Assembly: GCA_963971425.1 (NCBI GenBank)
Contig: OZ020520.1
Span: 28,365,535-28,429,534 of the forward strand
DNA from: Bryoerythrophyllum caledonicum
Lineage: Eukaryota; Streptophyta; Bryopsida; Pottiales; Pottiaceae
DNA length: 64,000 nucleotides
Direction: 5' to 3'
Made by a program: the position numbers and the translations under genes. Positions within the stretch are counted from its first letter, which is position 1, and the number at the start of each line of letters is the position of its first letter. The notes beneath the pieces were generated by a model, which did not search any database, was not told the DNA's origin, and was given only the letters and a program-made list of their open reading frames with translations. Below, piece by piece: positions 8,201 through 62,229 of this stretch.

Positions 8201-9383
8201 TAGCTCCTATGCTGTGTAAGTTTGCATAGGCTCCGGTTACATGATGACTTGCCCAAGAATCCATATACCACATGGCATTTTGGTATTCCATGAGATTAGC
8301 TTCTGTGGAGTCCCACTCACTATCCATATAAGTATCTCCCTCAACATAGTTTGCGGTGGCATAATAACCATAAGGGCAATTCTTTCTAATATGACCCTCC
8401 TCTCCATAATTATAACACATTAACCCTCTTCCGCGACCTCTTGCTGGTCGTGCATACATCTGCTGCCCATATGGTCTCATGATCATATTAAGTTGGCCCC
8501 CCGGGTAAGGTTGACCTGATACCGAGGTCGTCACCCCCGAATATTGACCAGGTCGTGGTCCCCCTTGTAGGAACCCATATCCCTGCAGGGGCCCAAGGCC
8601 ACCCTGCGGGAGTCCAAGGCCGCCCTACGGGGGCCCGACACCGCCCTGCGGCGGCCAATGTCCGTCCAGCAGCGGTGGGCCGGCGCCGCCCGATAGCGGA
8701 GGCTTGTGGCCGCCTAGCTGCGGAGACAGTTGGTGCAGGCCTGCGGCGCCCGCACTTCTGCCCAGGCCTCCTCCATGGGAGTTGCCGCCGGGTCTCCATA
8801 CCCACTGGCCTCCACCGCCGCCATATCCGTTGCTCCATCAAGGTACTCTTCCTCTTCCTCCGCAATTTTTGTTGAAGTGGACAGCAAGTGCTTCATCATG
8901 TCCTCTCTTTTGCTCTCTCAGGCTCTTGCGGTGTGATTCAATAAGCAATTTCCCCATCACAATCTCAAATTTTGGGTTCGTAAGATACGTAATACCTTGT
9001 ATTATCATCTCATAGCTGTGAGGAAGTCCGTTGAGCACGAGGTTGATGAGGGTCTTGTCTTCCATCTCTTCTCCATAGCCTTTCATCTCTTCTCCATAGC
9101 CTTTGAGTTGGTCGCGTAGGTCCATTGTTGTGGTCAAGTAGTTGTTGATGTCTTCCCCTTCTCTCGTTGATATTGTGTGCAATCTGTTGTTAAGCATTTG
9201 GATCTGCTGTTGATCTCTTGCAGAGAACATGGACTTGAGCATACTCCATGCATCAGCTGGGTCTTCATGTTGGCTAACTGTTCTGAGTAAGTTGTCTCCT
9301 ATGGACATGGTTAGGCATGTCAATGCACGTTGTTTTGCCTCCATCAGCTTCGCTTCAGTGTAGACTACGTTTGAGACAGTCAC
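5208..9383 (-). pseudogene. copia gag-pol polyprotein, broken
   Basis: Minus-strand pieces in order: gag with the UBN2-like stretch (9383-8840); a zinc knuckle CYNYGEEGHIRKNC near 8430 in which the second Cys is Tyr; protease near 8250 reading DSWAS instead of DSGAS; GAG-pre-integrase HLWHKRFGH near 7880; integrase core with HSDLVGP, DDYSRK and EQNGVSERRNRT (7700-7330); reverse transcriptase with DVKTAFLNG and LYVDDI (6600-6160); and RNase H with SSTEVEYR and CDNISSI, ending HIEFEHHYIREK (5600-5210). Several stops and frameshifts separate the pieces. A GC-rich Pro/Ala segment (8555-8870) interrupts the gag part and looks like an expanded or inserted stretch. It cannot make a working polyprotein. 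Confidence 0.92.
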
Positions 9384-9682
9384 TGGATATTCAGATGTGA
9401 CTACCTTAGTTCCTACTAGCGGTCATAACCCTTCTCTCTTCATTATTGCAGTCATCTTGATCTGCCAATTGCTATAGCTGAGAGGCCCAACTAGTTTGTT
9501 GGACTCTCCTACTTCACAGTTCGAACTCTTGCTACTCTCTGCCATACCTCTAGATCTGTGTCTTCTAGATCTCTAACTTAGATCTAGATCTCTACCTCTC
9601 AGATCAAATCTCAACCTTCTAGACCTATCTCTCTTTAGAAGGAGCAGGGCTCACTCGTCATACGCTCTGAAGACTAATACCA

Positions 9683-36037: not shown

Positions 36038-36054
36038 GTGAATATCAGGGTTGT

Positions 36055-36125
36055 CATACTGGATGGACGTCCGGTACGCCCGTCCGTCCGATTCACCCGT
36101 TCGGTAGAGCTCTCGCCCGTCCGAT
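36055..36125. promoter_or_regulatory. Left subterminal CCGTCC cluster
   Basis: Several CCGTCCGTCCG and CGTCCG(A/G) motifs within 75 bp of the left tip, matched at the right tip (45845-45900) and in the MITE at 22700. They are probably transposase-binding repeats. Confidence 0.6.
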
Positions 36126-36259
36126 ACAGTCAATTGAGGGTTGACATACCCGCTAGGTAAAAAACAGGCGACGTGGCAGCCATGTTGGCACCACATCGCT
36201 GCCATGAAGGACATGGTCATGTTTGAGTAGGAGCGGGGACTAATGTCAAGAGGGAGGTG

Positions 36260-36345
36260 GAGCGGAGACGTCCCCGCCCAACCGGGCAGGGGCGGAGATG
36301 TCCCCGCCCCTGCCCATAAAGGGGCGGGGACGTCTCCGCCCCTTC
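36260..36345. repeat. GACGTC palindrome cluster, left subterminal
   Basis: Three GC-rich palindromes of the form GGGGCGGRGACGTCYCCGCC (one with GATGTC). The same unit recurs in the central promoter (38553-38663) and near the right end (45590-45755). Confidence 0.85.
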
Positions 36346-36755
36346 ATGAGTTAGTTAATAGTGTTTAACTATTAACACTATGTTGGTAAACTAAAATTTA
36401 TGTTTATTGTAGTATACACTAAATGTGAACCCATACACCAATTGCAAATGAGGCACTTAGTGTAGTGACATAACCGGACACTAAATGCCATTTACTACAC
36501 TATGTATCAATTTTTGTAAAAATAATAAATTTATTTCTTTCACTTGTGCACATTTAGTGTATCAATAGTGTATCAATAATTATTTGTGGTTGAACAAATG
36601 CAAATCTCGGACTGAAAATTTAAGATTTGGACGTATCCAATATTGATTAGAATATAACGTATGGCAATTGCCAAGTACACATATTCTTCTACGAAGATGC
36701 CGTATTGCCTATTTAACCACCACATGCGAAACTAATGCAGCTAATTAACAAAAAT

Positions 36756-38328
36756 CTATTGTCGATAAGAACATAGAGGCATAGTCCAATTGTGGGGGGG
36801 TTTCATTAATGTGTCTAAAACATCTGGCATAGAAGACTGTTCTTCAAGCAGTTGTTTTTGCAACGCTATAAATTTTAGCTTCAGGTTTACATATTGCTCC
36901 GTGTTTTTGGTGGTGAAATACGAAGTGTCCCAATCTTCTTTCCAAATTTTTTCACAAATCCAACCCTCTGCAAATGCATCTGTTGCCTTGGAGTAGAGGT
37001 GTGACCATTGCATGACTTCAAGCGAATTGGTGGAGTCCCACGACCCAAAAATATAGAACAGTTCTGGTGCCACAAATCGTCGCCGCTCTCTCTCTTCTTG
37101 AACCTGCTACTTGAATTGATAACCATACTTTGATGGCTCATTCTCCACAACCCGACTAGAAAGCCCCCAATCGCAAATTTCGATGTACACCGTATCGGGT
37201 TTCCACTCATCAAAGTGGAGCAAAACATTCAATGGAGAGATGTCATTGTGTATATAATTGGCGTCGTGGCATTTCCTCACAATGACAAGCAACGATAGCG
37301 CGAGGTTCACTCGATTTTGGCGGTAAGTGTTTACCCACCGAAGCTCTTGAATTGACAACCCGGTATTCGGATGCATCTCAATCCGTTCGAACGGCAATGC
37401 TTCGTCCACTTTCGAATCAAACTTGGACCAAAAACTCTGGAGAGATCCCCCATTCCACCAGAGCGTGTACCCTTCCATAGTTTTCGGGTGGATGTACGCA
37501 AGTCTAATGATCCCTGGATGCACTACCGGACATCCTCCAGCCTCGTTGATGATGTCTCGGCGCTTCTCCCTGTTGTTGGTGTTGGTCAGAGTCTTTCCGA
37601 CGAAGTAAATCCAACTTGGAATGTTTTCCAATTTGGTTATCATCACCTTTCGTACAGCCCCATAGCCACCCACCGCTTTCTGTCCTGGCATTGGAATCAC
37701 CTTAGCGCAACTTTCAAGCCACTTGAAAGTTCCACCAACGTAGTGAGCCAAAATTTGCTCGTCAATAGTCGCTTGCCAAGGAGCTAGTTTCTTCTTACGG
37801 GAAGAAGAGTATTGTTGAACGAAACCCTGAATCATCCTCATCTTCGCCACTAATGCGTGCTCCTCCAAGTTCTAGTTGCTTTCATCCTCCTTCTTCCCCA
37901 TGACGTAACACCAGTTCGCAACAATATTGGTGGTTAGTGCGGTCACTTGTATGTCCAACCACTCCGAATGCAACCAATAATCGGAGAAATTTCTCAAATT
38001 TATCAAGGTTTGACATTAATTCGTGTCGCAAGTCAACTGTCAACTTGTGGAATCCCTCTTCGTTGTGGTTCAAATAGCTCCTCATCAACGCGGGTCTCAT
38101 TCGACGGTTGTAAAACTCGACAGCGATCCCTCTACATTCAACCATGTATTCGTGCGGGGGCATTTCCGGATTTGGTGTCTTCTTCCGCCTCTTCCCGCTC
38201 AATGACGACGGATTCAATGATCCCGAAGTCAACTCCGTGTTGGTGGACGGAAGCACCGTCTCATCAACATCATCCAAATCCATAAATACTGGGCGTTTCT
38301 CCATCCACCTACTTCCTTCTCCTGCCAT
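36756..38328 (-). pseudogene. Protein-kinase-like gene of the hAT element
   Basis: Starts at 38328 with MAGEGSRWMEKRPVFMDLDD and an N-terminal domain of about 145 residues that I do not recognise. The kinase-like part spans 37868-36756: loop GGYGAVRKV, Lys in FVGKTL, catalytic loop HNDISPLNVLL (HRD changed to HND, catalytic Asp and Asn kept), DWG in CDWGLSSR in place of DFG, then APELF (APE motif). Key residues for catalysis are therefore plausible, but the family is divergent. Lesions: a frameshift near 37905, an in-frame TAG near 37873 and another at 37107-37109 between DWG and APE. Divergently oriented to the RING gene across a 511-bp shared promoter. Substrate unknown. Confidence 0.75.
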
Positions 38329-38519
38329 ATGTGATAGTCAACTCCTTACCGTGGTCGAAATTCCAAGTTGATGGTTTTAAAAAAAAACCGCAAAGAGTTT
38401 GGGTACAATAAATGGGCCAAGCCCGATCACCCACCAAACTCACTTTCAGCCTTCAGGCCACAAAGCGAACTGACACGTGAGGCCTAGGGAGTGGACTTTG
38501 CAGAGAATAAGGACAAAAT

Positions 38520-38710
38520 GTCCCCTATTTATATGGTGTAGGGTTCTTTTTGCAAAGACGTCCCCGCCCTACCTGGGCAGGGCGGGGACGTCTCCGCCCT
38601 GCCCAGGTAGGGCGTGGACGTCTCCGCCCCTGCCAGGGGTGGGGCGGAGACGTCCCCGCCCCTGCCCGGAGACCCTAGACCAGTGCTTCGTCTATCGGCT
38701 ATATAATATC
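38520..38710. promoter_or_regulatory. Bidirectional promoter of the kinase/RING gene pair
   Basis: Four GACGTC-centred GC palindromes (38553-38663) lie between two outward TATA boxes: TATAAATAG on the minus strand (about 38525-38533), facing the kinase-like gene, and CTATATAATA on the plus strand (about 38699-38708), 131 bp before the RING gene's ATG. The ACGT core is a typical bZIP-type site; which factor binds is unknown. Confidence 0.65.
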
Positions 38711-38839
38711 GTGCACACCCCTAATCGTCCCCGCCTCACATACTCCCTCTTCATCCACCTCTTAATTGAGTTGGTTGTGGGCGTCGTGTGAGGACTTCAT
38801 CCATTCGCATCACATACATTATTCAGATTTTCCTCACCC

Positions 38840-40962
38840 ATGGCCACGCCGGTAAAAATGAATAAAGAAGAACGAGACAAGAGTCGACTACGATCGGGAA
38901 ACAAACAACGGAAGAGGTTGCATGTGCTTCAAAATCTTGTTAAATTGGCTTTTAAAGGTTGGGAAGAAGATCTGGAGCCATGGAGTTTCGAGGATTGCGC
39001 AAGCTTCATCGAGTGGTGCCATATCGACAAGGCTTTCCTGGAGGAGCGACACAATTATCACCGACGCTTTCACAAGGCAAATTTATGGAAGTGCACCGAC
39101 GAGGCGTTCAAAAATCGGTGCATTGAAGTATACCAGGTCTTGTACGACATCCCTTATATCAAACGCAATGAAGTAAATCTCTTCCTTGCACGAGGTGTCC
39201 ACGCGGAGGTAAAGTTGGGCAAGAGGGTGGATTGGTCCACCTTGAAAGCCATGGAAGATAGCATAAAAGTTTCTTCTCCGGCAAATGGATTGATTCCAAT
39301 GGGGACACGAAGGTATCCAGAAGGCGGATTGGGCAAATTGATGGCGAAGACTGAAGCGGTCGACACGTACGAGACCGATCCCTCAAACACCGATACAGAC
39401 TCTCACGGATCCCACGTTCCAATCACAAGGAGTCAAAGGATATAAGCGCGCACCAAACGAAGGAGGGCGGAACAGACGGTTAACGTAGTCATTAACGACA
39501 CCATTAATGAAGTTGTAGCTCAGGTACAATCCCCCGCGGTTGTTGATCGAACTTTAGAAGCGTCTACTGGTGCTATTTTTGCCAGCACTATCCAAACCTT
39601 GCTGAACCAATTGGAAGGGAAGACGACAGAACTATTGTCATTGCGCGATGAGGTTTGCAAGTTGAGAGTCGAACTTTTATCATCCACGAAGTCAATGATA
39701 AAAACATTGTTATTGACTTGCAACGACGTGATATGGAGGAGCTCCGACTTGCCCTACAAGCTAGTACACGTGTCAACCCAAGACATCCGTGATAGGAAGG
39801 GCTTGTACACGTGTCAACCCAAGACGATTCATTGTCGTTTGATGAGGCCCCTACCAACACAGACAAAGGTATGTTCAACAAAGAAGAGGGTGCGGCGGGT
39901 GGCGGCGGCAAAGAGCTGATTAAAGCGCTTGAAGAGAATTCAAGACTACAAAGTCGCTTGGATGTGTTGGTAGAACATTACTATCAATGGAAGTTGGCAT
40001 GCGTCTTCATGGTCAATCGGTCTCGACAATTGGTGGCGGAATTCCAAAAAGTCGACAACAACTACACCGAAAACAACCAGGAGAGGGTGTTTGGTTTGAC
40101 GTCGTGGGCCCTCGTAGATGATCTTTTCAAGATGGATGAAATGGCGATGGTGAAAACCGCCGGTGGGCAAACAACCATCAATTGGTCCCATTAAAATTGG
40201 GATTTCAAAAAGGAGGTTTCATCCACCCTCGATCATCGGGGCAATCCCATGTTATTGTGGCCACAACCTTCGAGCTTCCTATCCGACGGTACGACTTGCT
40301 CAATTTGTCTAAACCCATTTGGTTCAGAAGGTGGGATGCATCTAGGCACTTGTGAGCACTTGTACCATCCATTTTGCTTGATTAGCTTGATGGTTGTACG
40401 CCGGCGGTGCTCATTGTGCAAGGCCCCTTTTCACGAGCGATTGTACGAACTTTTTGGATTCGTTCCATACATGCCCCCGCATTGGGAGTTCAATGTGACG
40501 AACGCCCTTGATCAATCACAGATGCGGGGAAAGGATTTGGTGTGGAGTTGGAAACTGAAGATACACTCGTTGGATAAGATGCACCTCTCAAACGAGTGGG
40601 ATTGGGAAAGGGACCCCGAGCAGATTGTCCGGGTGTGCAAGAATTTGATCCCGTTAAAGGACAAATACGGTAAAATAAACGAAATTTCTTCTACCAATGC
40701 TTTAATGGCCATTGGGACGAGAACGGGGAGCAATTTTGTTTCGGACCACATCCACGGCAATGGTTGTGGGTCGTTGACGGAGTTTGCATCACAGTCGACA
40801 ACGGGGATCGCATTTCTCACGACGTTGACCAACCGGACCCGCAAGAACTAAGACAATTATCGGAATCAGAGTGGAAAGAAATTTTCCGAAATGACGGAAT
40901 CAACTTCTTGCTCGATGTGCACAGTCTAGGGACACGGCAAGCGCTCGACCAGCTCATGTAAT
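38840..40962 (+). pseudogene. Coiled-coil/RING-H2 gene of the hAT element
   Basis: Starts MATPVKMNKEERDKSRLRSG. An N-terminal domain of about 200 residues is unrecognised. A predicted helical stretch follows (LLNQLEGKTTELLSLRDEV, 39599-39670), and a further helical region (39900-40080). A RING-type zinc site is at 40288-40430: CSIC, then CEHLYHPFC and CSLC, spacing as in C3H2C3 RING-H2 ubiquitin ligases. A Trp-rich tail follows (EWDWERDPEQIV). One coherent protein of roughly 700 residues can be followed through an in-frame TAA at 39443, a 31-bp tandem duplication at 39774-39835 that shifts the frame, a TAA at 40192 and a one-base shift near 40757. Presumably an E3 ligase originally; partner unknown. 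Confidence 0.7.
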
Positions 40963-41340
40963 CTCAAATCCTAAGGGCCGTGTTGGATGAAGATGGACCG
41001 GCGAGGAGAACATGATTGGCGTCTCGTAGACTTGTATTGGGCTTAGATGAAGACCTCCCTATGCACGTAGGGGCATACCACAACGAGGCAGGGCCGAGTG
41101 GCACTACTAATAGCCCGATGAATATTGACTAGGTGTATTTTTTGTTTTTGCGGTACCAAGAGACAATTTTCTTACAATGCTTCATCTTTTAACGTTTAAT
41201 GTATTTTCCCATTTTCGTACTACATTATGGATACTAAAAAAATATGAATAGTAGTGTCTACATTCTACTTGATAATAGTGGTGTGATTATGGATGTACTT
41301 AAGCCTCATAAGGATTTGTGCGTTTGTATAAAAAAAATGG
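40963..41340. other. 3' flank of the RING gene
   Basis: No separate gene. The reading frame continues briefly past the terminal TAA (SQILRAVLDEDGPARRT, then TGA), which suggests that the original C-terminus lay here. Confidence 0.35.
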
Positions 41341-41660
41341 TGTGGACCAAGTTTTAAACCTCCAAACATTTTTAATCCCTAAAGGACCAAGGCATTTTTG
41401 CACCAAAAACACTTCAAAACTGTGAGGCTATAGTATAATGCCTAAGAAGGGAGACAAAACCTTTTTATTTCTACATCTAACCATAGGATCACAATAAATA
41501 CTTCTTTGTTAATGTCCCCACAAAATTTCATAAATTTTAACCACACGGATTGAAAGGCTTGCATAGCTCCCATGCTATTCACTACTTGGTATCAAATTTT
41601 TGCACTGGATAAGGCCTAAATCCATTACTAATGGTAGTTTAGGATGATGTTAGTTCCTTA
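41340..41660. repeat. Direct repeat D1, left copy
   Basis: Diverged match to 43640-43990. Shared stretches include CCCTAAAGGAC.AAGGCA, CAAAAACACT.CAAAACTG, CACGGATTGAAAG and TTTTTGCACT. The two copies flank the purine-rich block, so they may be the ends of a nested element. Confidence 0.6.
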
Positions 41661-41669
41661 TACACCTAA

Positions 41670-42590
41670 CGAAGAAGAAGGAAGAATAAGATGAAGACTA
41701 AGAAGAAGCAGTAAAGAAGATGAAGGTGAAAAAGAAGATGAAGAATATGAAGATGGAGAGGAGAGTCGGAAAAAAATTTAAGAAATGAAGAAGAAGAAGA
41801 AGAATAAGATGAAGAAGAAGCAAAAGAAGAAGAAAAGGAGAAGAAATAGATGAAAAAGAAGAAGAAGAAGTAGAAGAAGAGAACAGAAGAAGAAGAAGAA
41901 GAAGAAGAAGAAGAAGAAGAAGAGAGAAGAAGAAGAAGAGGATAGAAGAAGAAGAAGATGACAGAAGGAGTAGGGAAAAAAAGGGGGGGATAAGAAGAAG
42001 AAGAAGAAAATGGAGAAGAAGAATAAGATGGAGAAGAAGAAGAATAAGAAGAAGAAGAAGAAGAAGTAGAAGTAGAAGAAGAAGATGATGGAGAAAAAGA
42101 AGATGAAGAATAAGAAGATGAAGAGGAGAGTAGGGAAGAAAAATTAAGAAAGGAAGAAGAAGAAAAAGAATAAGATGAAGACGAAGAAGAAGCAATAAAG
42201 AAGATGAAGGTGAAAAAGAAGATGAAGAATATGAAGATGAAGAGGAGAGTAGGAAAAAAATTTAAGAAAGGAAGAAGAAGAAGAAGAATAAGATGAAGAA
42301 GAAGCAAAAGAGAAAGAAAAGGAGAAGAAATAGATGAAAAAGAAGAAGAAGAAGAAGAAGAAGAGGACAAAAGAAGAAGAAGAGGACAGAAGAAGAAGAA
42401 GAAGAAGAAGGAGAAAAAGAAGATGAAGAATAAGAAAATGAAGAGGAGAGTAGGAAAAACAAAATTAAAAGAAGAAGAAGAAGAAGAAGAATAAGATGAA
42501 GAAGAGGCAAAGAGAAATAAAAGGAAAAGAGAAAGAAGATGAAGAAGAAGGAAAAAAAGAAGAAGAAGAGGACAGAAGGAGTAGATAGGG
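41670..42590. repeat. Imperfect (AAG)n purine tract, about 0.9 kb
   Basis: Almost pure A/G on the plus strand, dominated by AAGAAG with GAT and AATAAG variants. Long Ser/Phe/Leu frames on the minus strand are artefacts of composition. Confidence 0.92.
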
Positions 42591-43019
42591 TTTAGGATTT
42601 AGGGTTTAAGGTTCAGGGTTGTGGGTTGTGGGTTACATGGCTATCCCGGAAAAAATGACATATTGTTTTTAAAGTTTTGAAGGTTTAGGGTTTTGGGTTT
42701 TGGATTTTGGGTTACAAGGGTGTCCCCAAAATATTGACCTATTTTTTTGATGGATTTTATTTGCTCTATAGCAGGTTGGACTCTTTCTAAATTTCTAGGT
42801 TATCCAAGGGTGCAGGGTTTCTAGGGTTAGGGGTCTCGAGGGTTTAGGATGTTTAGGCTTTTTTTGGTGCACCCCGAAAGTGGAGATGTTTAAAAGAAAA
42901 GCGTAGTAACGAAAAAGAAAGGGGAGGGAGGAGAGTGGTAGGGTTCACTCAAAAGAACGATAGTTGGTACAATTGGGGTGTTTAGGGTAGTATAGTGCGC
43001 CTTCTAAAGAGAACAAATC
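42591..43019. other. Degenerate telomere-like and spacer sequence
   Basis: Contains TTTAGGGTTTAAGG and GGTTTAGGGTTTTGGG runs (about 42590-42720), loosely telomere-like, then unassigned sequence. Confidence 0.35.
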
Positions 43020-43420
43020 TTAGGGAGGAACAAATCCAAATAAGAAACAAATTCTTGGAAGGATACAAATTCTTCAAAGATACAAATTCATTAAAATGAA
43101 GGGGATAGCATTCACTCCAGACAAGGATAGTTGGTGCAATGGGGTTCAAATCGGTAAACTACGCCCTTGAAAGGAACACATTCAAAAAAATTACACATCC
43201 ATAAAAGAAACACATTCGCAAGAGAGAAGCTCATTCGAGAAAGTTACACATATTGAAAAAGGAAACACATATTGAAAAAGGAAACACATATTGAAAAAAA
43301 GAAGCACACATTGAAAAAGTTACACATTGAAGGAAGTTACACATGCAAGAAAGAAACAAGTTCAAAAAAGTTAGACGTTCAAGAAAGAAACACTCCAGAA
43401 AATAAATGCATTCGAAAGAG
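43020..43420. repeat. Short degenerate repeats (AAAGAAACACATT.AAAAAGTTACACAT)
   Basis: A run of diverged units built on GAAACACATT and AAGTTACACATT, spacing 15-30 bp; 43244-43300 has three close copies of a ~22-bp unit. Purine-biased, non-coding. Confidence 0.7.
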
Positions 43421-43639
43421 TTTGAGCGGCACACTGCTGGGCCAGCTCACATCAACTTGAAGTTCACAAGCGCAGGGATTATGTGTGGGTCGAAGATACC
43501 CCCCAGGGGCCAGAGGCAAAAGAAAGGAGGGTTGATTGTCCACGGGTCGAAGATAACGAGGTCGTTTCCTCTTTAGAATAATTATTTTCCTAACAAAACA
43601 CCAATTATCCGGATCCTTCAAGATCCGGGTACTTACAAT

Positions 43640-43990
43640 TATCCCCGGATGGTTTAACCCCTAAAGGACGAAGGCAATTTTTCCTCAAAAACACTCCAAA
43701 ACTGCCATTTTTAGCACATTCAACACAAAATGATACAAAATCATTTTTTTGAAAATTTAACCGTAGGATCTTGTACTAGACTTGTATGCAAATGTTTGGT
43801 GAAAATTTTGGTAAGTTTGACCGCACGGATTGAAAGATATTAGCCTTTGAAGTGCAACATAATCTCTTTTTCATGTCATACTATACACCTTCAACAAACT
43901 TCGACCACCTTCTATGGCAACTTTTTGCACTACGGGCCGTAAATTTATTGTGTTAACTTGAAAAGGATCATGTTAGGCACAGGTGCTGCT
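43640..43990. repeat. Direct repeat D1, right copy
   Basis: Diverged partner of 41340-41660 in the same orientation. Confidence 0.6.
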
Positions 43991-44141
43991 GTGCACCAAA
44001 TTTTAGAAGTAGAAGAGGTGTAGAAGATGTCCTAAAAAATCCTGCAATGCAACTATGTGCCGAGAATCAACAATACACTTTATATTTTGCATATATCAAG
44101 GTCGTTGGGGACCTTAGAATCAAAGTCCTCGTCGCAGTCCT

Positions 44142-45371
44142 TTGCCTCATCTTCCTCAAAATGAGGGCATTAATGAAGTGCAACCTTTGTCTACTTCCTC
44201 AGAGAGTGACATCCCAAATGTGACTAACCTTGAAGAGCCTGAAATGGAGGGGGCCTATGTCGGAAATGTTCGCGACGATGACAATTCCCCATCAGACTAT
44301 GGAGGTGGAAATGGAGATGCCGACAACAACAGAGCGGGAGAGAACGCAGTAAATACTGCGACTCGAAACAACCAAGGATCGGTTAAAAATCGGTATGGCC
44401 AAGAGAGCCCTATTGGAATGGGTGCATCATTTCATAGCACTGGAGTCGTTCAAGGAGACTTTAACGCAAATGTTGTAAACACAACAATTGTAGGGACGAC
44501 TCGAAGAAATGAAAGGGTTGTTAATCAGCGTCGGCGTTTTGACCCGGAATATGTAGACCCCGATGATGCTTTTGCTTTCACAGAGGACCTTGAGCCACAA
44601 CCATCTCCGGTTGTGGTGTTGCCTACGGTTATCAATGACGAGAATGTACAAACGCCGCCTTCCCGGAATTCCTCTTCTCCTAGAACGGCGAATGCCATGT
44701 ATGGACCTTTCCAACGAAGTGTAGGCGTTGAGGGGATGGGTCTAAACACTTCCGCTACTACTACCAGAAATGGCACACCCCCTTTGGCCGCTACAAGGAC
44801 GCCTCTTCATCCAATGGGTCAATATATACAACCGAGTGGAAGGACTAATGCTTGTGGAGGGTCTAGAGGCCGTGGAGCGGCTAGAGGCTGTGAAGGAAGA
44901 AACAATGGCGAAGCATCCTCCTCAAGGCATCGTAGACGCCCCCTCCTTGAAATAGGGGCACGAGATCCGAACGTGGTTGTATAACCATTTTTGGACACGT
45001 ATGTTCCAGGACGCTCTTCAACAACTCCGGCCTTTGTTGTTCCGAATCGAGCACTTCGTCCTACCAGCGGCCCAACCATAAATTCCGACGGCGATGATCC
45101 TCACGCACATCGACAAAAGAGATTCAGACGCTCGTGTTGTGATGGTGAAACAATCGTAGAGCTTCGCAATGACAACTCTGAAATAGAGGGCTTTTGGACT
45201 ACGGATGGTAGCAATGGAGAATTCTCAGATGAGAGCGATGAAGGAGCTGATGATGACAACCGTCCAGATTGCGATGAGGCACCAGATGATGATGATATCG
45301 TCCTCCGAGATGCGGTTATGGGTGGCCCGTCCACCGAAGGAGTGCGCAGATCGGGCCGTTTGAATAATTAA
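44142..45371 (+). pseudogene. Disordered acidic protein ORF of the hAT element
   Basis: Open frame with one in-frame TAA at 44982-44984, about 410 codons in all. The product is low in hydrophobics and rich in Asn, Gly, Asp, Arg and Pro. It has a Gly/Arg-rich patch (GGSRGRGAARG), a basic patch (RQKRFRRS) and a long Asp/Glu-rich tail (DESDEGADDDNRPD), ending GVRRSGRLNN. The R-SGRLNN end resembles tails of plant transposon-encoded proteins, an impression rather than an assignment. No ATG near the start, so an upstream exon is likely. No transposase motif. Confidence 0.45.
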
Positions 45372-45589
45372 AGGACAAGAAAAGTAACTACATATATGTA
45401 TGCAAAATCAAGAGAGTTGTGATAATTCATAGAAGAAGCTAGGAGAGAAAAAGGTTTCTTAGATAACTACAAGATATTACTTCGTTTGGAAGTATGAGAT
45501 TAGGGAATTGTTGTTTTATCGTCAAACTTTTTAATGAAATAAACATATTTTGCTTCCAGACATTAAGGTCTCTCCGCTCAATGATGCAG

Positions 45590-45755
45590 GGGCAGGGACG
45601 CCTACATGAGGGGCGTAGACATCTCCGCCCAGGTGCGGGGACGTCTCCGCCTCTAGGGGTCTCCGACCCTAGGTACGGGGACATCTCCGACCCTAGCTCT
45701 ACGTCCCTAGGGTAGAGACGTCGCCGCCCCTCATGGAGACGTCCCCGCCCTAGTG
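45590..45755. repeat. GACGTC palindrome cluster, right subterminal
   Basis: Five to six diverged copies of GGGGACGTCTCCGCC and variants with GACATC, matching the left and central clusters of the same element. Confidence 0.8.
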
Positions 45756-45918
45756 CCACGGTGGCGTGACACGTCCGAATGTGACGCGGCAATCACAGTA
45801 AAAATTTCTTACTTGCAAAATATTACTGGACGCACTTTGGGCAATCCGTCCGAACCGTCCGTCCGGTTGTCCCGTCCGATCACCTCAACCTGTCCGTTAT
45901 GACAACCCTGGTGAATAT

Positions 45919-46850: not shown

Positions 46851-47150
46851 ATCACGAATGTGGATGCCGCAGACTACCGCGACTGAAGAACCCTGCCGCA
46901 ATGAATGAAAAGAAATCGGGCAGAGGATGAAAGAAATCCGGTTGATGACGGAGAAAAATGAGCAGATGATGGAACAAATGGGCAGACGGTCGCCTACCCT
47001 GAACCGTGGGTGGCCTACGTTTAGGGTTTAGGGTTCCTAGGTCGAGGGGATTCCTGCAATCTGTCGCACAGTGTGAGGACGCAACAGAGAAGAGATTTTT
47101 TTGTTCTTCTTATCTGAACGTTTGGAGATGCACGTGCTTGTATGTTTCTG

Positions 47151-47345
47151 CAGGCGACGGAGAAAAGCTACGTGATGGTGAAGCCTGACGGCGCGCAACG
47201 AGGCCGTGATCCGCAGGCGACGGAGAAAAGCTACGTGATGGTGAAGCCTGACGGCGCGCAACGAGGCCGTGATCCGCGACTTAGAAAAAATCGGAAAAGT
47301 CCTCGAAGTGACGCATTACTCAAAACCCTAGGATCTGCTGCGCTG
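47151..47345 (+). pseudogene. NDPK-like exon fragment, with 63-bp tandem duplication
   Basis: After a plausible acceptor (TTTCTGCAG) the frame reads ATEKSYVMVKPDGAQRG, resembling the first strand and KPDGVQRG loop of nucleoside diphosphate kinases. A neighbouring frame continues NEAVIRDLEKIGKVLEV, so a frame shift separates them. The 63-bp unit 47151-47213 is repeated exactly at 47214-47276, acceptor CAG included. NDPK identity is a tentative reading of a short match. Confidence 0.45.
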
Positions 47346-47489
47346 GAAACCTTGGCCATGGGTCACGATTCTCTCTCTCTTTGCCCTCTTCATTGGGGTT
47401 GAGTTTTCTGCTAATCGATGTCCTGCTCCATAAGGTTTCTTTTGTCTTGTTTTACTCAGAAGTTGGATGAGCGGCTAGAAGCTCGATTT

Positions 47490-48446
47490 TTATTTGGACA
47501 CCCTATGGAACATTGACCAACTCCTGTAGGGTTTAATTTCCCAGTCCATGTCCCTTACGTCTGCACTGAGGATTACGATGGTGGAGATTTTTTTGAGTTC
47601 CCCCTGCGCAACGGTTGGACTAAGCGCACATTACGTGAATCTCTGAATTCTGACAAGCAGACAGGTGGTGAGGCCTTTTTCCAATCCTGGCTATTTTCGG
47701 GTGCTTGATCGAGGTGTTCAAAGTTGTTGGTATTAGGGTTAAGTCACTTGACTTTCGTCAAAGAGAAAATTTGACAACTAAAATGCTACCATTGTTTATA
47801 CAACGATGGAGGGATATTGAGTCTGACCTTACAAATGTCTCCGAATTGTTTGAGAAGGGCGAGTTGGAGACTCGTTTGGGGTTAAGGGAAAATTATTCTG
47901 AATGTAGAAGACGAATCAAATCTATGATCTATCTTGTTCAGAAATATGTTCGTTTATATTGCACTGAGATCAGGTTTCCTTCTCTCTCAGTATCTTGTAA
48001 GATTTGGTTGTCAATCATGGCTTTGGCTCATACCCTCCAACAGGCTGCGCGTCGGATTTATGGTCCCAAGGACTTTCGTTTTGAAAAGGTGGGATATAGT
48101 CACATCTTGAGCGAGCGCATTCTGATGAGAGGCTGGTGCAAAGCTGAGTGTGCCAATTTTGTGAGAGAGATGGACATCGATGTTTTGTACTATGTTGGCT
48201 CTGTGAAGTCTCTTCGTTGTGATGAAAATCATGACAATTGTACGGAGCGGGCATGTGTTGCTAAGGGTATTAACACAAGAGAATATCAAACAAAGCATGA
48301 TGTACTAGACTGTACTTGTTGTGAAATGGAGGTCAACGTCCAGAGGGTCATCGAAATTATTTAACATGATGGGATTCCTCTTGTAAACTGGGATGGGAAA
48401 GAGATTCGTGTAATCGAGTTTGATGGCAAGTCGAACTACTTGGCGA
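47490..48446 (+). pseudogene. HET-domain gene, truncated duplicate (5' half)
   Basis: Reads PTPVGFNFPVHVPYVCTEDY, then GGEAFFQSWLFSGA, LIEVFKVVGIRVKSLDFRQR and on to KEIRVIEFDGKSNYLA, where the copy breaks off before the rest of the HET domain. In-frame TGA at 47514-47516 (Trp expected) and a one-base frameshift near 47703 are shared with the other copy, so the damage predates the duplication. Non-functional. Confidence 0.85.
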
Positions 48447-48455
48447 GTCGAACTT

Positions 48456-49730
48456 CTTTTTCTTTTTCTTCTTCTTCTTCTTCTTCTTCTTCTTCTTCTT
48501 CTTCTTCTTCTTCTTCTTCTTCTTCTTCTTCTTCTTCTTCTTCTTCTTCTTCTTCTTCTTCTTCTTCTTCTTCTTCTTCTTCTTCTTCTTCTTCTTCTTC
48601 TTCTTCTTCTTCTTCTTCTTCTTCTTCTTCTTCTTCTTCTTCTTCTTCTTCTTCTTCTTCTTCTTCTTCTTCTTCTTCTTCTTCTTCTTCTTCTTCTTCT
48701 TCTTCTTCTTCTTCTTCTTCTTCTTCTTCTTCTTCTTCTTCTTCTTCTTCTTCTTCTTCTTCTTCTTCTTCTTCTTCTTCTTCTTCTTCTTCTTCTTCTT
48801 CTTCTTCTTCTTCTTCTTCTTCTTCTTCTTCTTCTTCTTCTTCTTCTTCTTCTTCTTCTTCTTCTTCTTCTTCTTCTTCTTCTTCTTCTTCTTCTTCTTC
48901 TTCTTCTTCTTCTTCTTCTTCTTCTTCTTCTTCTTCTTCTTCTTCTTCTTCTTCTTCTTCTTCTTCTTCTTCTTCTTCTTCTTCTTCTTCTTCTTCTTCT
49001 TCTTCTTCTTCTTCTTCTTCTTCTTCTTCTTCTTCTTCTTCTTCTTCTTCTTCTTCTTCTTCTTCTTCTTCTTCTTCTTCTTCTTCTTCTTCTTCTTCTT
49101 CTTCTTCTTCTTCTTCTTCTTCTTCTTCTTCTTCTTCTTCTTCTTCTTCTTCTTCTTCTTCTTCTTCTTCTTCTTCTTCTTCTTCTTCTTCTTCTTCTTC
49201 TTCTTCTTCTTCTTCTTCTTCTTCTTCTTCTTCTTCTTCTTCTTCTTCTTCTTCTTCTTCTTCTTCTTCTTCTTCTTCTTCTTCTTCTTCTTCTTCTTCT
49301 TCTTCTTCTTCTTCTTCTTCTTCTTCTTCTTCTTCTTCTTCTTCTTCTTCTTCTTCTTCTTCTTCTTCTTCTTCTTCTTCTTCTTCTTCTTCTTCTTCTT
49401 CTTCTTCTTCTTCTTCTTCTTCTTCTTCTTCTTCTTCTTCTTCTTCTTCTTCTTCTTCTTCTTCTTCTTCTTCTTCTTCTTCTTCTTCTTCTTCTTCTTC
49501 TTCTTCTTCTTCTTCTTCTTCTTCTTCTTCTTCTTCTTCTTCTTCTTCTTCTTCTTCTTCTTCTTCTTCTTCTTCTTCTTCTTCTTCTTCTTCTTCTTCT
49601 TCTTCTTCTTCTTCTTCTTCTTCTTCTTCTTCTTCTTCTTCTTCTTCTTCTTCTCTTCTTCTTCTTCTTCTTCTTCTTCTTCTTCTTCTTCTTCTTCTTC
49701 TTCTTCTTCTTCTTCTTCTTCTTCTTCCAC
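48456..49730. repeat. Giant (TTC)n microsatellite, about 1.27 kb
   Basis: About 420 TTC units with essentially one interruption near 49653 and a short TTTTTC lead-in. It begins ten bases after the broken end of the left inverted arm. The very long poly-Ser, Leu, Phe, Lys, Arg and Glu frames on both strands here are not genes. Confidence 0.98.
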
Positions 49731-53993: not shown

Positions 53994-56520
53994 TTAACCT
54001 TCCTTTCTCAGACTCCTCAGGTTGGTACTCATATCAGAGTCCTCTGTATCATTTCCCATCGTTCCACTACTCGTCTTAGTTTTTGAAACAAGTCGTGGAT
54101 CCAAGAGGCTTTGGCTGACAGATTGATGGCCGATGACGATGATTGCGTATTGCTTCGCTGAATCTGAATTACAACGCTTGGGGTTGAGATCTTTGGCAAG
54201 AAGTTGAAGTGTAATAGTATAGCCAACAATGCAGTCATTACCCGGGATAACATTTATTGTCACCTCCTCATTCCTCTTGAAATGTATCGGCTTTCCAGTT
54301 TCGAGTTTGATGCCTGAGAAGGTCACATGGAAGCCTATTGGGTAGTCTTTGTTCACGTGACCATACTCCTTATAGCCACCCTCAAAGACCCCAAGTTTTC
54401 CTACTTGACCGAGGAAAGATTTCAGCGCCCATCCATAACTGTCGTTCTGAAGGCAGGGCAAGTCATTGAATAAAAAACGGCTCTCAATTCTCTCGACCAG
54501 ACCCAAAAACCTTTGCATAAGCTCATCTGCACTAGGCTTTACTTCAGCACCTCTCTCGTCTCTGTGCACAAGTTGTAGTGTTTTGACATCCATCCTATGC
54601 ATCATCGTGGCCATGCAGATTGTCTCATCCTCCTTGTGGGTTGTTCTGCGGGTCATGACCGCACGTACCAAGGGTATAAAAGCCAAATGTGGCGAAGCAT
54701 TCTCTTCTTTCAAAACGCGTAGACCGTTCATAGGCATGGGGATCAGAGTCAATATTCTGTCCACGCTGCTTCTATAGAATACTGGCATGAGTACAACACT
54801 TTCTACCTCTATCTTTTCCTGAGTGTAAATCTCTTGTATCATCTGTTGTCCATCTTTTAATGAAAAGAAGAGGTTTGATGCTAGCGCGCCTTCTTGAAGT
54901 GTCCAGAGTCGATTCTGCCAACTGCACAAATAAAGTCTTACCGCTTTTTCAAAGCTGCTAGTTCCTAGCACAACTTTTTCAAGCCAATTGTCGAGGACAA
55001 GGACTCGATGGGCACTCCTATAAATGCGCAACAATTGAGAGATAGCGTGCTTGCGATAAGGCTTGATGGTTTCTCCATCTGGGAGGCAAAGCGTGTCCAT
55101 CCAAAATCCCACACGTAGTCTCTTCGAGTCATCCTCTTTCAAGTTACGGCCCATCTCAGAATCACAAACACCAACTTCCTCCTCTCCAACTGTAGAGTAA
55201 AGATTCAACCCTAAACCTTGAATACGGGTGAGTTGACATGTAGGGAGAGCGTTCTTGTTTAGGTTGCCCATCCCATCCCTCCATCTATTGGAATCCAAAA
55301 GTCAGAACCCTTAGCCTCTAACATAACATACAAAGTTACAAACAAACACTCATCATATCTACCTGTACATATGTAGAGCTGTAACCTTCTATTTGAAGCA
55401 AAGCACCTGAACTTTGTCGCAGTACAGAGCTGATCCACAAAAAAGTGAAATGCTTTGCTTGCATGATCAGAGTCCAAAACTAACATGAAATCGGAGCGCA
55501 GAGAGAAATGCATGACTCAGCTGAAGGACCTCAAAGGTCTTCGTTAGGAGAGCAACTTACACATGTGAAATCGCCAAGTAGTTCGACTTGCCATCAAACT
55601 CGATTACACGAATCTCTTTCCCATCCCAGTTTACAAGAGGAATCCCATCATGTTAAATAATTTCGATGACCCTCTGGACGTTGACCTCCATTTCACAACA
55701 AGTACAGTCTAGTACATCATGCTTTGTTTGATATTCTCTTGTGTTAATACCCTTAGCAACACATGCCCGCTCCGTACAATTGTCATGATTTTCATCACAA
55801 CGAAGAGACTTCACAGAGCCAACATAGTACAAAACATCGATGTCCATCTCTCTCACAAAATTGGCACACTCAGCTTTGCACCAGCCTCTCATCAGAATGC
55901 GCTCGCTCAAGATGTGACTATATCCCACCTTTTCAAAACGAAAGTCCTTGGGACCATAAATCCGACGCGCAGCCTGTTGGAGGGTATGAGCCAAAGCCAT
56001 GATTGACAACCAAATCTTACAAGATACTGAGAGAGAAGGAAACCTGATCTCAGTGCAATATAAACGAACATATTTCTGAACAAGATAGATCATAGATTTG
56101 ATTCGTCTTCTACATTCAGAATAATTTTCCCTTAACCCCAAACGAGTCTCCAACTCGCCCTTCTCAAACAATTCGGAGACATTTGTAAGGTCAGACTCAA
56201 TATCCCTCCATCGTTGTATAAACAATGGTAGCATTTTAGTTGTCAAATTTTCTCTTTGACGAAAGTCAAGTGACTTAACCCTAATACCAACAACTTTGAA
56301 CACCTCGATCAAGCACCCGAAAATAGCCAGGATTGGAAAAAGGCCTCACCACCTGTCTGCTTGTCAGAATTCAGAGATTCACGTAATGTGCGCTTAGTCC
56401 AACCGTTGCGCAGGGGGAACTCAAAAAAATCTCCACCATCGTAATCCTCAGTGCAGACGTAAGGGACATGGACTGGGAAATTAAACCCTACAGGAGTTGG
56501 TCAATGTTCCATAGGGTGTC
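53994..56520 (-). pseudogene. HET-domain (heterokaryon-incompatibility-like) gene, near full length
   Basis: Plant HET-domain proteins share a fungal-type HET fold; their role in plants is not established. The first exon runs to 55561, the intron is 55560-55285 (276 bp, GTAAGT...AG), and the second exon is 55284-53994. The join gives YLAISHVWRDGMGN, the diagnostic HET start, followed by KNALPTCQLTRIQ, FWMDTLCLP, AHRVLVLDNWLE and RLWTLQEGALASNL. The upstream part includes FNFPVHVPYVC and GGEAFFQSWLF. Two lesions, TGA at 56503-56501 and a one-base shift near 56315, also occur in the left-arm copy. Without those, the product would be about 750 residues. Translation could in principle restart downstream, but that is untested. 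Confidence 0.85.
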
Positions 56521-57103
56521 CAAATAAAAATCGAGCTTCTAGCCGCTCATCCAACTTCTGAGTAAAACAAGACAAAAGAAACCTTATGGAGCAGGACATC
56601 GATTAGCAGAAAACTCAACCCCAATGAAGAGGGCAAAGAGAGAGAGAATCGTGACCCATGGCCAAGGTTTCCAGCGCAGCAGATCCTAGGGTTTCGAGTA
56701 ATGCGTCACTTCGAGGACTTTTCCGATTTTTTCTAAGTCGCGGATCACGGCCTCGTTGCGCGCCGTCAGGCTTCACCATCACGTAGCTTTTCTCCGTCGC
56801 CTGCAGAAACATACAAGCACGTGCATCTCCAAACGTTCAGATAAGAAGAACAAAAAAATCTCTTCTCTGTTGCGTCCTCACACTGTGCAACAGATTGCAG
56901 GAATCCCCTCAACCTAGGAACCCTAAACCCTAAACGTAGGCCACCCACGGTTCACGGTAGGCAACCGTCTGCCCATTTGTTCCATCATCTGCTCATTTTT
57001 CTCCGTCATCTACCGGATTTCTTTCATCCTCTGCCCGATTTTTTTTCATTCATTGCGGCAGGGTTCTTCAGTCGCGGTAGTCTGCGGCATCCACATTTGT
57101 GAT
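55571..57103 (-). repeat. Inverted duplication, right arm (1533 bp)
   Basis: Partner of 46851-48446 in opposite orientation, with only scattered single-base differences by eye. Here the HET sequence continues unbroken into SHVW, so this is the ancestral copy. Confidence 0.95.
56690..56803 (-). pseudogene. NDPK-like exon fragment, single copy
   Basis: Same segment as at 47151-47345 but without the 63-bp duplication. Reads ATEKSYVMVKPDGAQRG after an acceptor-like CTGCAG. Confidence 0.45.
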
Positions 57104-59637: not shown

Positions 59638-61851
59638 CTATGGGGTTACTTGCTTTCGCCTCCGACTGCTACGGCGTGAAGGGGTAACCTCTGCTGGAGC
59701 GGTGCCGGCCTCGGTTTGCGCCGGAATGGCTGCTGGTGGCTCCGGTGAGGTGGTCGGCGTCGGCATACCTGGTCCGGATGGTGCATCCGGGTCCTCTGTT
59801 GTGACCGCCTGGCCGGATGGTGCATCTGCACGGTCTTCAACGTCCGGAAAGTCCCGGAAACTACCGTTGGGGCTGACCACCATGGGTGTCGCTGCCGAGC
59901 TTCCGGGTAAAGGGTCCGTCACTGGTGGCCCCGGAGAGGGAGACTCTGAGGGAATTCGGAAGGGCAAGGGTGGTACTGCCTGACTCCCTGGCACCTGTTC
60001 CCACTTCTGCATACTCTCCGTGCTTGGGAAGGCCACCCCATTCCAACTCATAGGAGAGCTGAAATCCGGCGTTCCCACGAGGTCATTGAACTGTCCGGTG
60101 AGTGACTTCGTTGTTCCAGATGCAGGTCTGGGTGAAGAGTCGGCCGGAGGTTGGGTAGAAGAAGCAGCTGCCGGACCGGATGGGGATCCGGACGGGCCTC
60201 CAGTGGTTCCAGACGGATCTGCCTGGGTTTCGGATGGTCCCGCAGCGTCTGGAGCAGGTGGTGCCGGAATTGGAGGGGGAGCTCCTGGTATTGTTGAGGT
60301 GGCCGCCACGAGATCCCTTGCTAGCTCATGCATCTTGGACTAGGTGCTCTCCATTTTCCGGCTGTGATCCACCATGAACCGGATAACCTGCCCCTTATTG
60401 AGCTTCTCGTTCTTCTCCAAGCTCGCTGTGTAGAGTAATGCCCGGTTAACCGTATCTACCGGGAAATCCAGCGTTGTGCGGATATCGGTCAGTGTCTGTG
60501 AAGCTGCCTGGACCTTCGTTTCTGCCACCACTCGGGCATGCTGTGTTGCATCCCGTGCGGCTTCCGCCTACCGGACCTGACCCAAGAGCCGGGTGTTAAC
60601 CTTGGTCATGGTGGCGTTTTCCTGCTCCAGTCTTGTGACGGAATCGTGCTTCTCCTTCATCTCTCTGAGCTGGGCGATGAGGTGAGTGGTGTCCTCCAGT
60701 CCGACTGCCTCTAGGATGGCCATGATCATGGCATGCCTCTCCCGGATCTCTCCTTCCTGGATCCTGGTCCTCTAGACAATATGTCTACAGAGTTCGTGGA
60801 CGTCCACGGGAATGTCGCCAATGATGCTTGGGACAAACGTCGGTCCCGGCTCTGATCCAGTCGCCAATCGTTCGTCTTCCGGGGCCGGTTCCGGTGCGGT
60901 TGGCTGCGCTGCGGTTGGTGGTGCTACGGGTGGGCTCTGAACCGGAATTGTTGACAACGGCCGGCATGCTCCCGGGGTCTCCGGAGTCCTCTGCACCGAA
61001 CGACTCTGCTTCCGGTTCGGTCTTCGAAGTATGAGGGGGGATGATGACTTCTCCGTGTCAGAGTCCATCGATTCATCCAGTTCCTCATCTGTTTCCATCC
61101 CTCCGTATGAGTGGATGGTGAGCAGGCTATCGTACTCGGCCTGCTCATCCGGACTCAACATCTTCTGCTTGGCGTACATGTGAGCCAGGTAGGTGGAAAG
61201 CGGGGATGGGGTTTTCCGGGCTTTCGGCAGGTTCTTCACCATTTTATCAATCTGCTCGTCCATGATGGCCGCCCAGTCGATGGACAGCTTCCCTCTCATC
61301 GAGCCCAGGATCAGTGTTGCTAGCTTGGCCACTATCCGTTTCGGTTTCTCGAGATGGAAAATAGGGTTGAAGAATGCCATTACTAACCTAGCGTCCGGAT
61401 CGGTGAGGTCGCTGAGGACATACCCGTCTTTAGGGTTAGCCTTCGCACGGAATTCGCCCTTCAAGATGGCGTCGTCACGTTCCGCCACCTTGATTGTTCC
61501 TGCCCGGAACTCGTAGGTGTCTCTCCAGAGTGCCGTGGTCCAGACCTCCGGATGCGCCCTAATCTTCTGCGCGTATTGGCTTGGTGGCTCTCCCAGGAGC
61601 TCCGTCATCATCGTTTCGCTCTGGAAGGCCCACGGTGTCGCTAGAAGACCTTCACAGCCCATGATCTTGAGGTAGCTCTCTAAAACCCGACAGGTCTTGA
61701 CCGGCTTCGGAATCTCCGGAGTCACCTTCTGCAGCACCAGTGTTTCAGTAGCCGGAGCCTTGCCCTTCTTGCCCGCCATCCGTGCCCACCTCTCCGTGAA
61801 CTTGCGCCTCGCAATGTTGTCAAGAAATCCTGCACACACTGTCCTTACCAA
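59638..61851 (-). pseudogene. gag-like retroelement ORF with three in-frame TAG codons
   Basis: One continuous minus-strand frame of about 738 codons with no frameshift, interrupted only by TAG at 60772-60774, 60568-60570 and 60340-60342, and ending at TAG 59638-59640. The first methionine in the conserved part is MAGKKGKAPATETLVLQK. The N-terminal globular part (WAFQSETMMTELLG, KDGYVLSDLTDPDARLVMAF, NPIFHLEKPKRIV) resembles gag-like proteins annotated as plant transposon proteins. Then come an acidic stretch (ETDEELDESMDSD), a coiled-coil part (LIAQLREMKEKHDSVTRLEQ), a Pro/Ser/Thr-rich disordered region and a basic tail (RRSSRRRKQ). No zinc knuckle or pol. Assignment as gag is by layout and general resemblance. 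Confidence 0.55.
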
Positions 61852-62229
61852 GTCCCTCTTGCTAACCTAATTTGGCTCTACCGTCCTTCACCAAGACCGG
61901 ATTCGAAACCCTAAGAAAATGCGAGAAGTGGAAAGAGAATGAGCCTGTTGGAAACCCTAAAAGATTGGTGCACAGGGCTGCCAGTCGCGTTTTGCATCTG
62001 ACGCACTTGTACGGAAAACCGTTATGCGTCATGATGGCATTTCCGGGTCCGGCTGTAACCGTCCTCCGGTTTTGCAACTTCCGGGAAGGGTGTTGTAACT
62101 ACCTTCATTAGGGATTCCGGCGCAGCACTAAAATCTTATTCCGTTCTATGAACTACTTATGCTCTTACGGCCAACTAACTAACTAATTTTTCTAATTTTT
62201 CTTTATTTTCTTCCGGATTTGGTATTAAG

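Follow-up and report, generated by a model that had tools for sequence, protein, structure and literature searches.

A damaged hAT element of Bryoerythrophyllum caledonicum belongs to a high-copy family whose full-size copies carry kinase, RING and transposase genes

Our analysis of a 64-kb stretch of the Bryoerythrophyllum caledonicum genome (assembly GCA_963971425.1, contig OZ020520.1, positions 28,365,535 to 28,429,534; hereafter the window) identified a 9,865-bp element, at window positions 36046-45910, as a defective member of a high-copy hAT transposon family. Full-size copies are about 12 kb long and contain four genes, coding for a kinase-like protein, a RING-H2 protein, a small third protein and a transposase, and the first three of these genes belong to the element. 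We consider it highly probable that this is a multi-gene hAT whose kinase, RING and RING paralogue are genes of its own, kept as an aid to its spread, with functions that we can so far only predict. An earlier note, made from the sequence of the window, had described a cargo-bearing hAT family in which a kinase/RING pair stands in for a visible transposase. Ten other copies with both genes between the same termini bear out the family; the absence of a transposase holds for the window copy, which retains only its C-terminal tail, and fails for the family, which encodes a DUF659/hATC transposase. Kinase and RING do travel together, and the pair is an incomplete account of the extra genes, of which there are three.

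The terminal features claimed in that note were all recovered. Exact 13-bp terminal inverted repeats (TIRs; CAGGGTTGTCATA) delimit the element, an exact 8-bp target-site duplication (TSD; GTGAATAT) occupies both flanks, and clusters of CGTCCG repeats lie just within the two ends. In the window, CAGGGTTGTCATA has no exact match other than these two TIRs. When up to two mismatches are allowed, the window holds five matches against 1.62 expected, and because 3 of 100 shuffled sequences also reach five, the TIR alone is weak evidence in a single window. Across the 437-Mb genome, the exact TIR occurs 798 times (381 forward and 417 reverse), compared with two matches (1 + 1) for the reversed control.

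Neighbouring TIRs less than 25 kb apart were convergent in 17 cases and otherwise arranged in 3 (first 100 of the 798 listed places, contig 1). We read 10 of the 11 contig-1 pairs spaced 9.8-13.2 kb apart, together with a copy on contig 15 (C15) picked for its open frames; the other six of the 17 convergent pairs were left out, and short and very long forms are therefore unrepresented. Ten of these 11 TIR-bounded stretches, namely nine of the ten contig-1 pairs and C15, share one layout, with the kinase gene on the minus strand followed on the plus strand by the RING gene, the small third gene and the transposase gene, so that these genes recur elsewhere in the genome, enclosed by the same ends. 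The remaining stretch, L039 (9.9 kb, contig 1), is an unrelated TIR pair without family genes and without a TSD. The ten full copies measure 11.1-13.2 kb, and their gene order is fixed while their frames are often broken. All family copies have CAGGG-type TIRs, and the 8-bp duplication, counted over the 11 family copies including that in the window, is exact in six, has one mismatch in four and has two in one.

Linkage of the genes extends beyond the copies that were read. Genome match lists comprised the best 40-150 scored places, and the counts taken from them are lower bounds; some unplaced contigs look duplicated (e.g., C752/C876 and C847/C851), so the counts are not fully independent. A divergent kinase match lies a median of 3.0 kb from 73 of 150 listed RING matches, and a RING match in the same orientation lies a median of 5.4 kb before 45 of 96 listed transposase matches. 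Shifting the coordinates by 300 kb or 1 Mb left 0 or 1 links, which supports the proposal that kinase and RING travel together. The third gene occurs at no fewer than 150 places.

What do these genes encode? The kinase-like product has 526 amino acids in copies with an open frame. In the window, the frame at 37107-37871 (minus strand) matches Pkinase with E 6e-6 and 26.3 bits, under the cut-off of 31.7, which the kinase of copy L029 exceeds with 35.5 bits. Among 19 copies, the HxD Asp and the following Asn are present in 18 (the other has a gap), the DWG Asp in 16 and the GKT Lys in all 19; we take these to be the catalytic and ATP-site residues of the kinase. Matches in the PDB, to VRK and CAMK2 kinases, are weak (E 0.002-0.008). 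The RING-H2 product, 761 amino acids in C15, is of a divergent H2 type. The window frame at 40195-40851 (plus strand) matches zf-RING_2 with E 9e-6 and 26.3 bits, under the cut-off of 27.3, and the RING of copy L031 scores 14.6 bits in Pfam; PDB matches include chains of RNF24, RNF38 and Arkadia, and each of the eight C3H2C3 zinc ligands is kept in 17-20 of 20 copies. The earlier view of two long divergent genes is thus correct as to both signatures and their orientation, whereas in the window both genes are broken, with stops at two of the aligned codons of the kinase and at five of those of RING, and both score below the Pfam cut-offs. As a separate observation, some copies match the window RING piece over all 218 residues and most listed matches end at residue 160, perhaps reflecting two C-terminal forms of the RING protein or a shared frame change.

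The third gene, of 218 codons, is paralogous to the N-terminal part of the RING gene, with 141 of 218 aligned residues identical. In C15, nonsynonymous (dN) and synonymous (dS) divergence between the two are 0.17 and 0.85 over the first 170 codons, and 0.24 and 1.01 over 218. Neither the N-terminal part of RING nor the third gene has a Pfam match above the cut-off, the best weak match being MmlI. Viral relatives of the kinase and of the third gene were absent from two single-protein scans of viral contigs, which reach close relatives only. The transposase of L029 matches DUF659 (E 6e-34, 117.3 bits, cut-off 34.7) and the hAT dimerisation domain hATC (E 3e-6, 27.5 bits, cut-off 21.4). As for BED, which the earlier note also named as a domain to look for in full-length copies, the N-terminal piece of the L029 transposase has no Pfam match, though it shows a CxxC...H pattern. 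Among 12 copies, the CTDGW Asp and the CTDNA Asp are each kept in 11 and the CERNWS Glu in 10, presumably the catalytic D, D and E of hAT transposases.

Selection on the four genes was assessed from 19 kinase, 20 RING, 10 third-gene and 13 transposase copies, comprising the fetched pairs (without L039) and the best-scoring loci, a set biased toward window-like copies, from which the duplicates L009, L019, L028 and L052 had been removed. For variants seen in single copies, omega (dN/dS) is 0.89 for the kinase, 0.98 for RING, 0.82 for the third gene and 0.77 for the transposase; for variants shared between copies, it falls to about 0.55, 0.71, 0.51 and 0.62, respectively. The difference is significant for the kinase (p = 0.0017) and RING (p = 0.0022). 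Controls for shared variants range from 0.73 to 1.66 overall (spacers 0.73-1.66, off-frame readings 0.89-1.60), and the kinase value lies outside them. We conclude from the aligned codons that the predicted kinase and RING proteins are constrained. If shared variants are taken as older, the apparent pattern is one of constraint during the active phase of the copies and decay afterwards.

A second line of evidence comes from what appears to be a related hAT group. We refer as sister-type to 20 of the 150 listed DUF659 places, those at which a somewhat different part of the profile is matched, a label with no tree behind it. One such copy on contig 15 (near 13758138-13763535) starts with CAGGGTTGTTCGGCCGTCCGTCCGTCCGG, and its transposase, the start of which aligns at 58% identity over 45 residues, follows after about 1 kb. 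There, tblastn at E 1e-3 detected no kinase, RING or third gene. The idea of a sister group without extra genes was dropped, since the downstream side proved to hold a gene, convergent with the transposase, for a RING-H2 protein that scores above the zf-rbx1 cut-off (E 2e-7). It is collinear with the family RING from the RING itself into the C-terminal region, the two blastp matches having E values of 1e-10 and 6e-4 and scores of 47.4 and 27.7 bits. The highest score among 200 shuffles was 27.3 bits, which makes the match in the C-terminal region weak when taken by itself. Against family copies, the sister RING gives tblastn values down to 1e-12. Among the matches listed, a convergent RING gene lies 3.75-3.84 kb downstream of 9 of the 20 sister-type transposases, with a tenth in another arrangement; for the roughly 130 other listed transposases, none of the first 30 has it. 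Presumably the RING gene was present in the common ancestor of the family and the sister group, or it has been exchanged between them.

Full copies also contain arrays of GGGGACGTCTCCGCCC-type palindromes, spaced by about 31 bp. One array lies in each of the two subterminal regions, another separates kinase from RING, and the third gene and the transposase are each preceded by one. With a degenerate pattern, all five places are matched in seven of the ten full copies (L029, L031, L033, L037, L041, L045 and C15), four in L035 and three in each of L043 and L047. Three are left in the window copy. The pattern is absent from the remaining 54 kb of the window, where the bare core GACGTC occurs 10 times compared with 11 within the element. 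Array matches number 11 in the window element and 31 in C15, with none in 100 shuffled elements, and an exact 16-mer of the array occurs 1,873 times in the genome (905 + 968) versus 0 + 0 for its reverse. The location of the arrays before genes and at both ends suggests a putative self-recognition protein.

In conjunction, these observations lead us to the following model for how the extra genes might serve the element. A protein of the element would recognize the palindromic arrays through a putative binding activity and recruit the predicted RING ligase, possibly along with the kinase, to the promoters and termini of the element itself. There, bound host silencing factors or the transposase would be modified or turned over, and the element would thereby stay expressed and mobile. 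A role directed at silencing, or that of a selfish accessory module, fits the shared-variant constraint, the promoter arrays and the sister RING; that the genes act against host silencing is a tentative proposal, to which we give somewhat less than an even chance. We would go further only as speculation, and rather doubt the scenario in its entirety: in a clade of plant hATs working as multi-component systems, RING-H2 would be a long-standing companion of the transposase, found in two diverged groups with different gene orders, to which one family added a kinase and a duplicate of the RING N-terminal domain, the proteins acting jointly on the arrays of promoters and ends in ubiquitin- and phosphorylation-based counter-silencing or control of transposition.

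Several points weigh against this interpretation. Most copies read have stops in at least one gene, and C15, which is open in the compared frames, has Asn in place of the DWG Asp as well as one mismatch in one TIR. The drop from singleton to shared variants is not significant for the third gene (p 0.29) or the transposase (p 0.10), the RING value for shared variants sits at the edge of the control range, and shared variants may include recurrent mutations. The sister label depends on which profile stretch is matched, and no kinase was seen in the one sister copy read, whose right end was not reached. Two single-sequence AlphaFold models reached predicted local distance difference test (pLDDT) values of 30.4 and 42.1, too poor for fold comparison. 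The genes are presumably expressed, their proteins are predicted and binding of the arrays is putative; we favour the proposed mechanism only with reservation.

It is possible, although we find it rather unlikely, that RING and kinase set the rate of transposition through the stability or phosphorylation of the element's own transposase, in a manner unrelated to host silencing. Self-limitation could favour such genes, and RING and transposase co-occur in two hAT groups; taken alone, this explanation does not account for similar arrays preceding the genes and lying near the two termini, and the interaction it invokes is putative. Less probable by a good margin is passive cargo, in which pieces of host kinase and RING genes entered a hAT a single time and multiplied with it while serving no purpose, much as in Pack-type elements. 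Some plant DNA transposons pick up host genes, and the near-neutral singleton substitutions, the stops in many copies and a RING constraint that by itself is near control values would all agree with such an origin. Captured genes of the Pack type would be free of selection, which is not what we find: many listed copies have full-length open frames, shared variants indicate constraint (clear in the kinase, near the control range in RING), dN/dS between the RING N-terminus and the third gene is about 0.2, catalytic and zinc positions are conserved, and the sister group has a related RING gene. We retain the reading in which the three extra genes are the element's own and aid its spread.

How the window copy came to lack a transposase is a separate matter. 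Its identity to other copies is mostly 91-94% up to position 41666 and 89-95% from 44096 onward, and between these positions 2,429 bp stand where C15 has 4,800 bp; this replacement has taken the place of the third gene and of all but the tail of the transposase. Faulty or interrupted gap repair after excision, a process known for Ac/Ds, is the simplest and a likely origin. The copy would require a transposase supplied from elsewhere in order to move. Exact TIRs and an exact TSD, in a copy that has lost most of its transposase, could be taken to mean that it belongs to a propagating, transposase-less subfamily that carries cargo only. We searched 1,136 of the 2,429 bases, excluding the GAA-rich part, and scored 40 of 2,684 first-look candidates; at the 39 other scored places, similarity is confined to the 3' 440 bp, which form a dispersed repeat. 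As the searched part of the replacement was not found elsewhere as a unit, such a subfamily seems very improbable. That two nested insertions supplied the termini, or that kinase and RING are chance neighbours, can be rejected with near certainty: nothing about the window copy favours it, L039 is the one chance pair among the ten fetched, and the exact TSD of the window copy goes together with the same genes, order and ends in ten other full-size copies with TSDs.

Table 1. Coordinates of features of the window element (window positions).
Feature	Position	Strand	Remarks
Left target-site duplication GTGAATAT	36038..36045	.	Identical to 45911-45918
Left TIR CAGGGTTGTCATA	36046..36058	+	Exact, 13 bp
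Left subterminal CGTCCG repeats	36063..36125	.	Clustered just inside left end
Palindromic GGGGACGTCTCCGCCC-type array, left subterminal	36258..36343	.	Pattern search
Kinase-like gene, broken	36759..38328	-	Frame change near 37.88 kb, stop at 37107-37109
Palindromic array between divergent kinase and RING	38552..38663	.	Pattern search
RING-H2 gene, broken	38840..41133	+	End placed by eye against C15
2,429-bp replacement of 4.8 kb	41667..44095	.	GAA-rich array, TTTAGGG-like stretch, repeats
Dispersed genomic repeat, about 440 bp	43653..44095	.	Ends at right breakpoint; 94-95% identity at 39 other scored places
hAT transposase C-terminal remnant, acidic low-complexity tail	44096..45371	+	89-95% to ten full copies
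Palindromic array, right subterminal	45590..45750	.	Pattern search
Right subterminal CGTCCG repeats	45842..45890	.	Clustered just inside right end
Right TIR	45898..45910	-	Exact copy of CAGGGTTGTCATA
Right target-site duplication GTGAATAT	45911..45918	.	Exact match to left one

The rest of the window holds further repeats. Frames resembling a Ty1/copia retrotransposon lie at 5670-9422 (minus strand), among them a frame at 6539-7492 that matches SH3_retrovirus (E 3e-32) and, below the cut-off, RVT_2 (E 3e-4). An inverted repeat, 46851-48446 and 55571-57103, combines 1.24 kb at 99.8-99.9% identity with 0.36 kb at 98%; each arm holds the same 230-residue frame, which has no Pfam match in the arm tested. 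One arm adjoins a CTT microsatellite at 48453-49727 (1,275 bp, 425 copies, 99% matches), and between the arms a 435-residue frame at 53994-55301 (minus strand) shows a weak HET-domain match (E 0.0013, below the cut-off). A 364-residue frame at 60772-61866 (minus strand), without a Pfam match, resembles by eye a frame in L039 and may represent another repeat family. Elsewhere in the assembly, rbcL was found on three contigs (L049, L050 and L051, corresponding to contigs 821, 590 and 894), two of which differ clearly from the third; the frame that follows rbcL in L049 and L051 is presumably accD. The divergent rbcL perhaps comes from the plastid of a second plant, some plastid contigs being foreign, or is an old nuclear copy.

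What is the relevance of such an element? Cut-and-paste transposons are usually read as a single transposase between two ends. Constrained kinase and RING genes, arrays in cis and a RING-bearing sister group suggest that hATs can carry regulators of their own, and the family offers a concrete system for asking how ubiquitin and kinase signalling help transposons to withstand silencing. It also calls for caution in annotation, as gene models for kinases and RING proteins in this genome may belong to transposons.

The family resembles other members of the hAT superfamily (Ac/Ds, Tam3, Hermes and hobo) in its short CAGGG TIRs, its 8-bp TSD and the DUF659 and hATC domains of its transposase, the C-terminus of which weakly matches Hermes-type PDB chains (E 0.002-0.009). 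Internally deleted derivatives, well known for Ac/Ds, occur here as well. Unlike typical hATs, which contain a single transposase gene, the family is about 12 kb long and has three further genes. VANDAL elements, to which it may be likened by description, are Mutator-like and not hATs; the arrays are present in our family, and their binding is putative. They are likewise plant DNA transposons with an accessory protein, and their VANC anti-silencing proteins have targets in non-coding DNA, often arranged as tandem repeats (PMC5735166, PMC10398659). ToxhAT/ToxTA of wheat-pathogen fungi, a 14-kb cargo element once called a hAT, is placed by its authors near Tc1/Mariner and differs in being single-copy, in its TA target duplication and in carrying an effector gene (PMC12506042). 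The hAT7 transposons of rust fungi carry a TET/JBP gene, in some families upstream of the transposase, and are hATs with an extra gene possibly affecting DNA methylation; they differ in being fungal, in their 7-bp TSD and in encoding a TET/JBP dioxygenase, and neither "protein kinase" nor "RING" is mentioned in the main text of the paper on them (PMC12730594). We regard VANC and these TET/JBP genes as precedents for the proposed mechanism. A literature search of partial coverage found no hAT with kinase and RING genes. DNA transposons with accessory genes are known; as far as we have seen, the combination of a kinase/RING set on a hAT, palindromic arrays and a RING-carrying sister group appears to be new.

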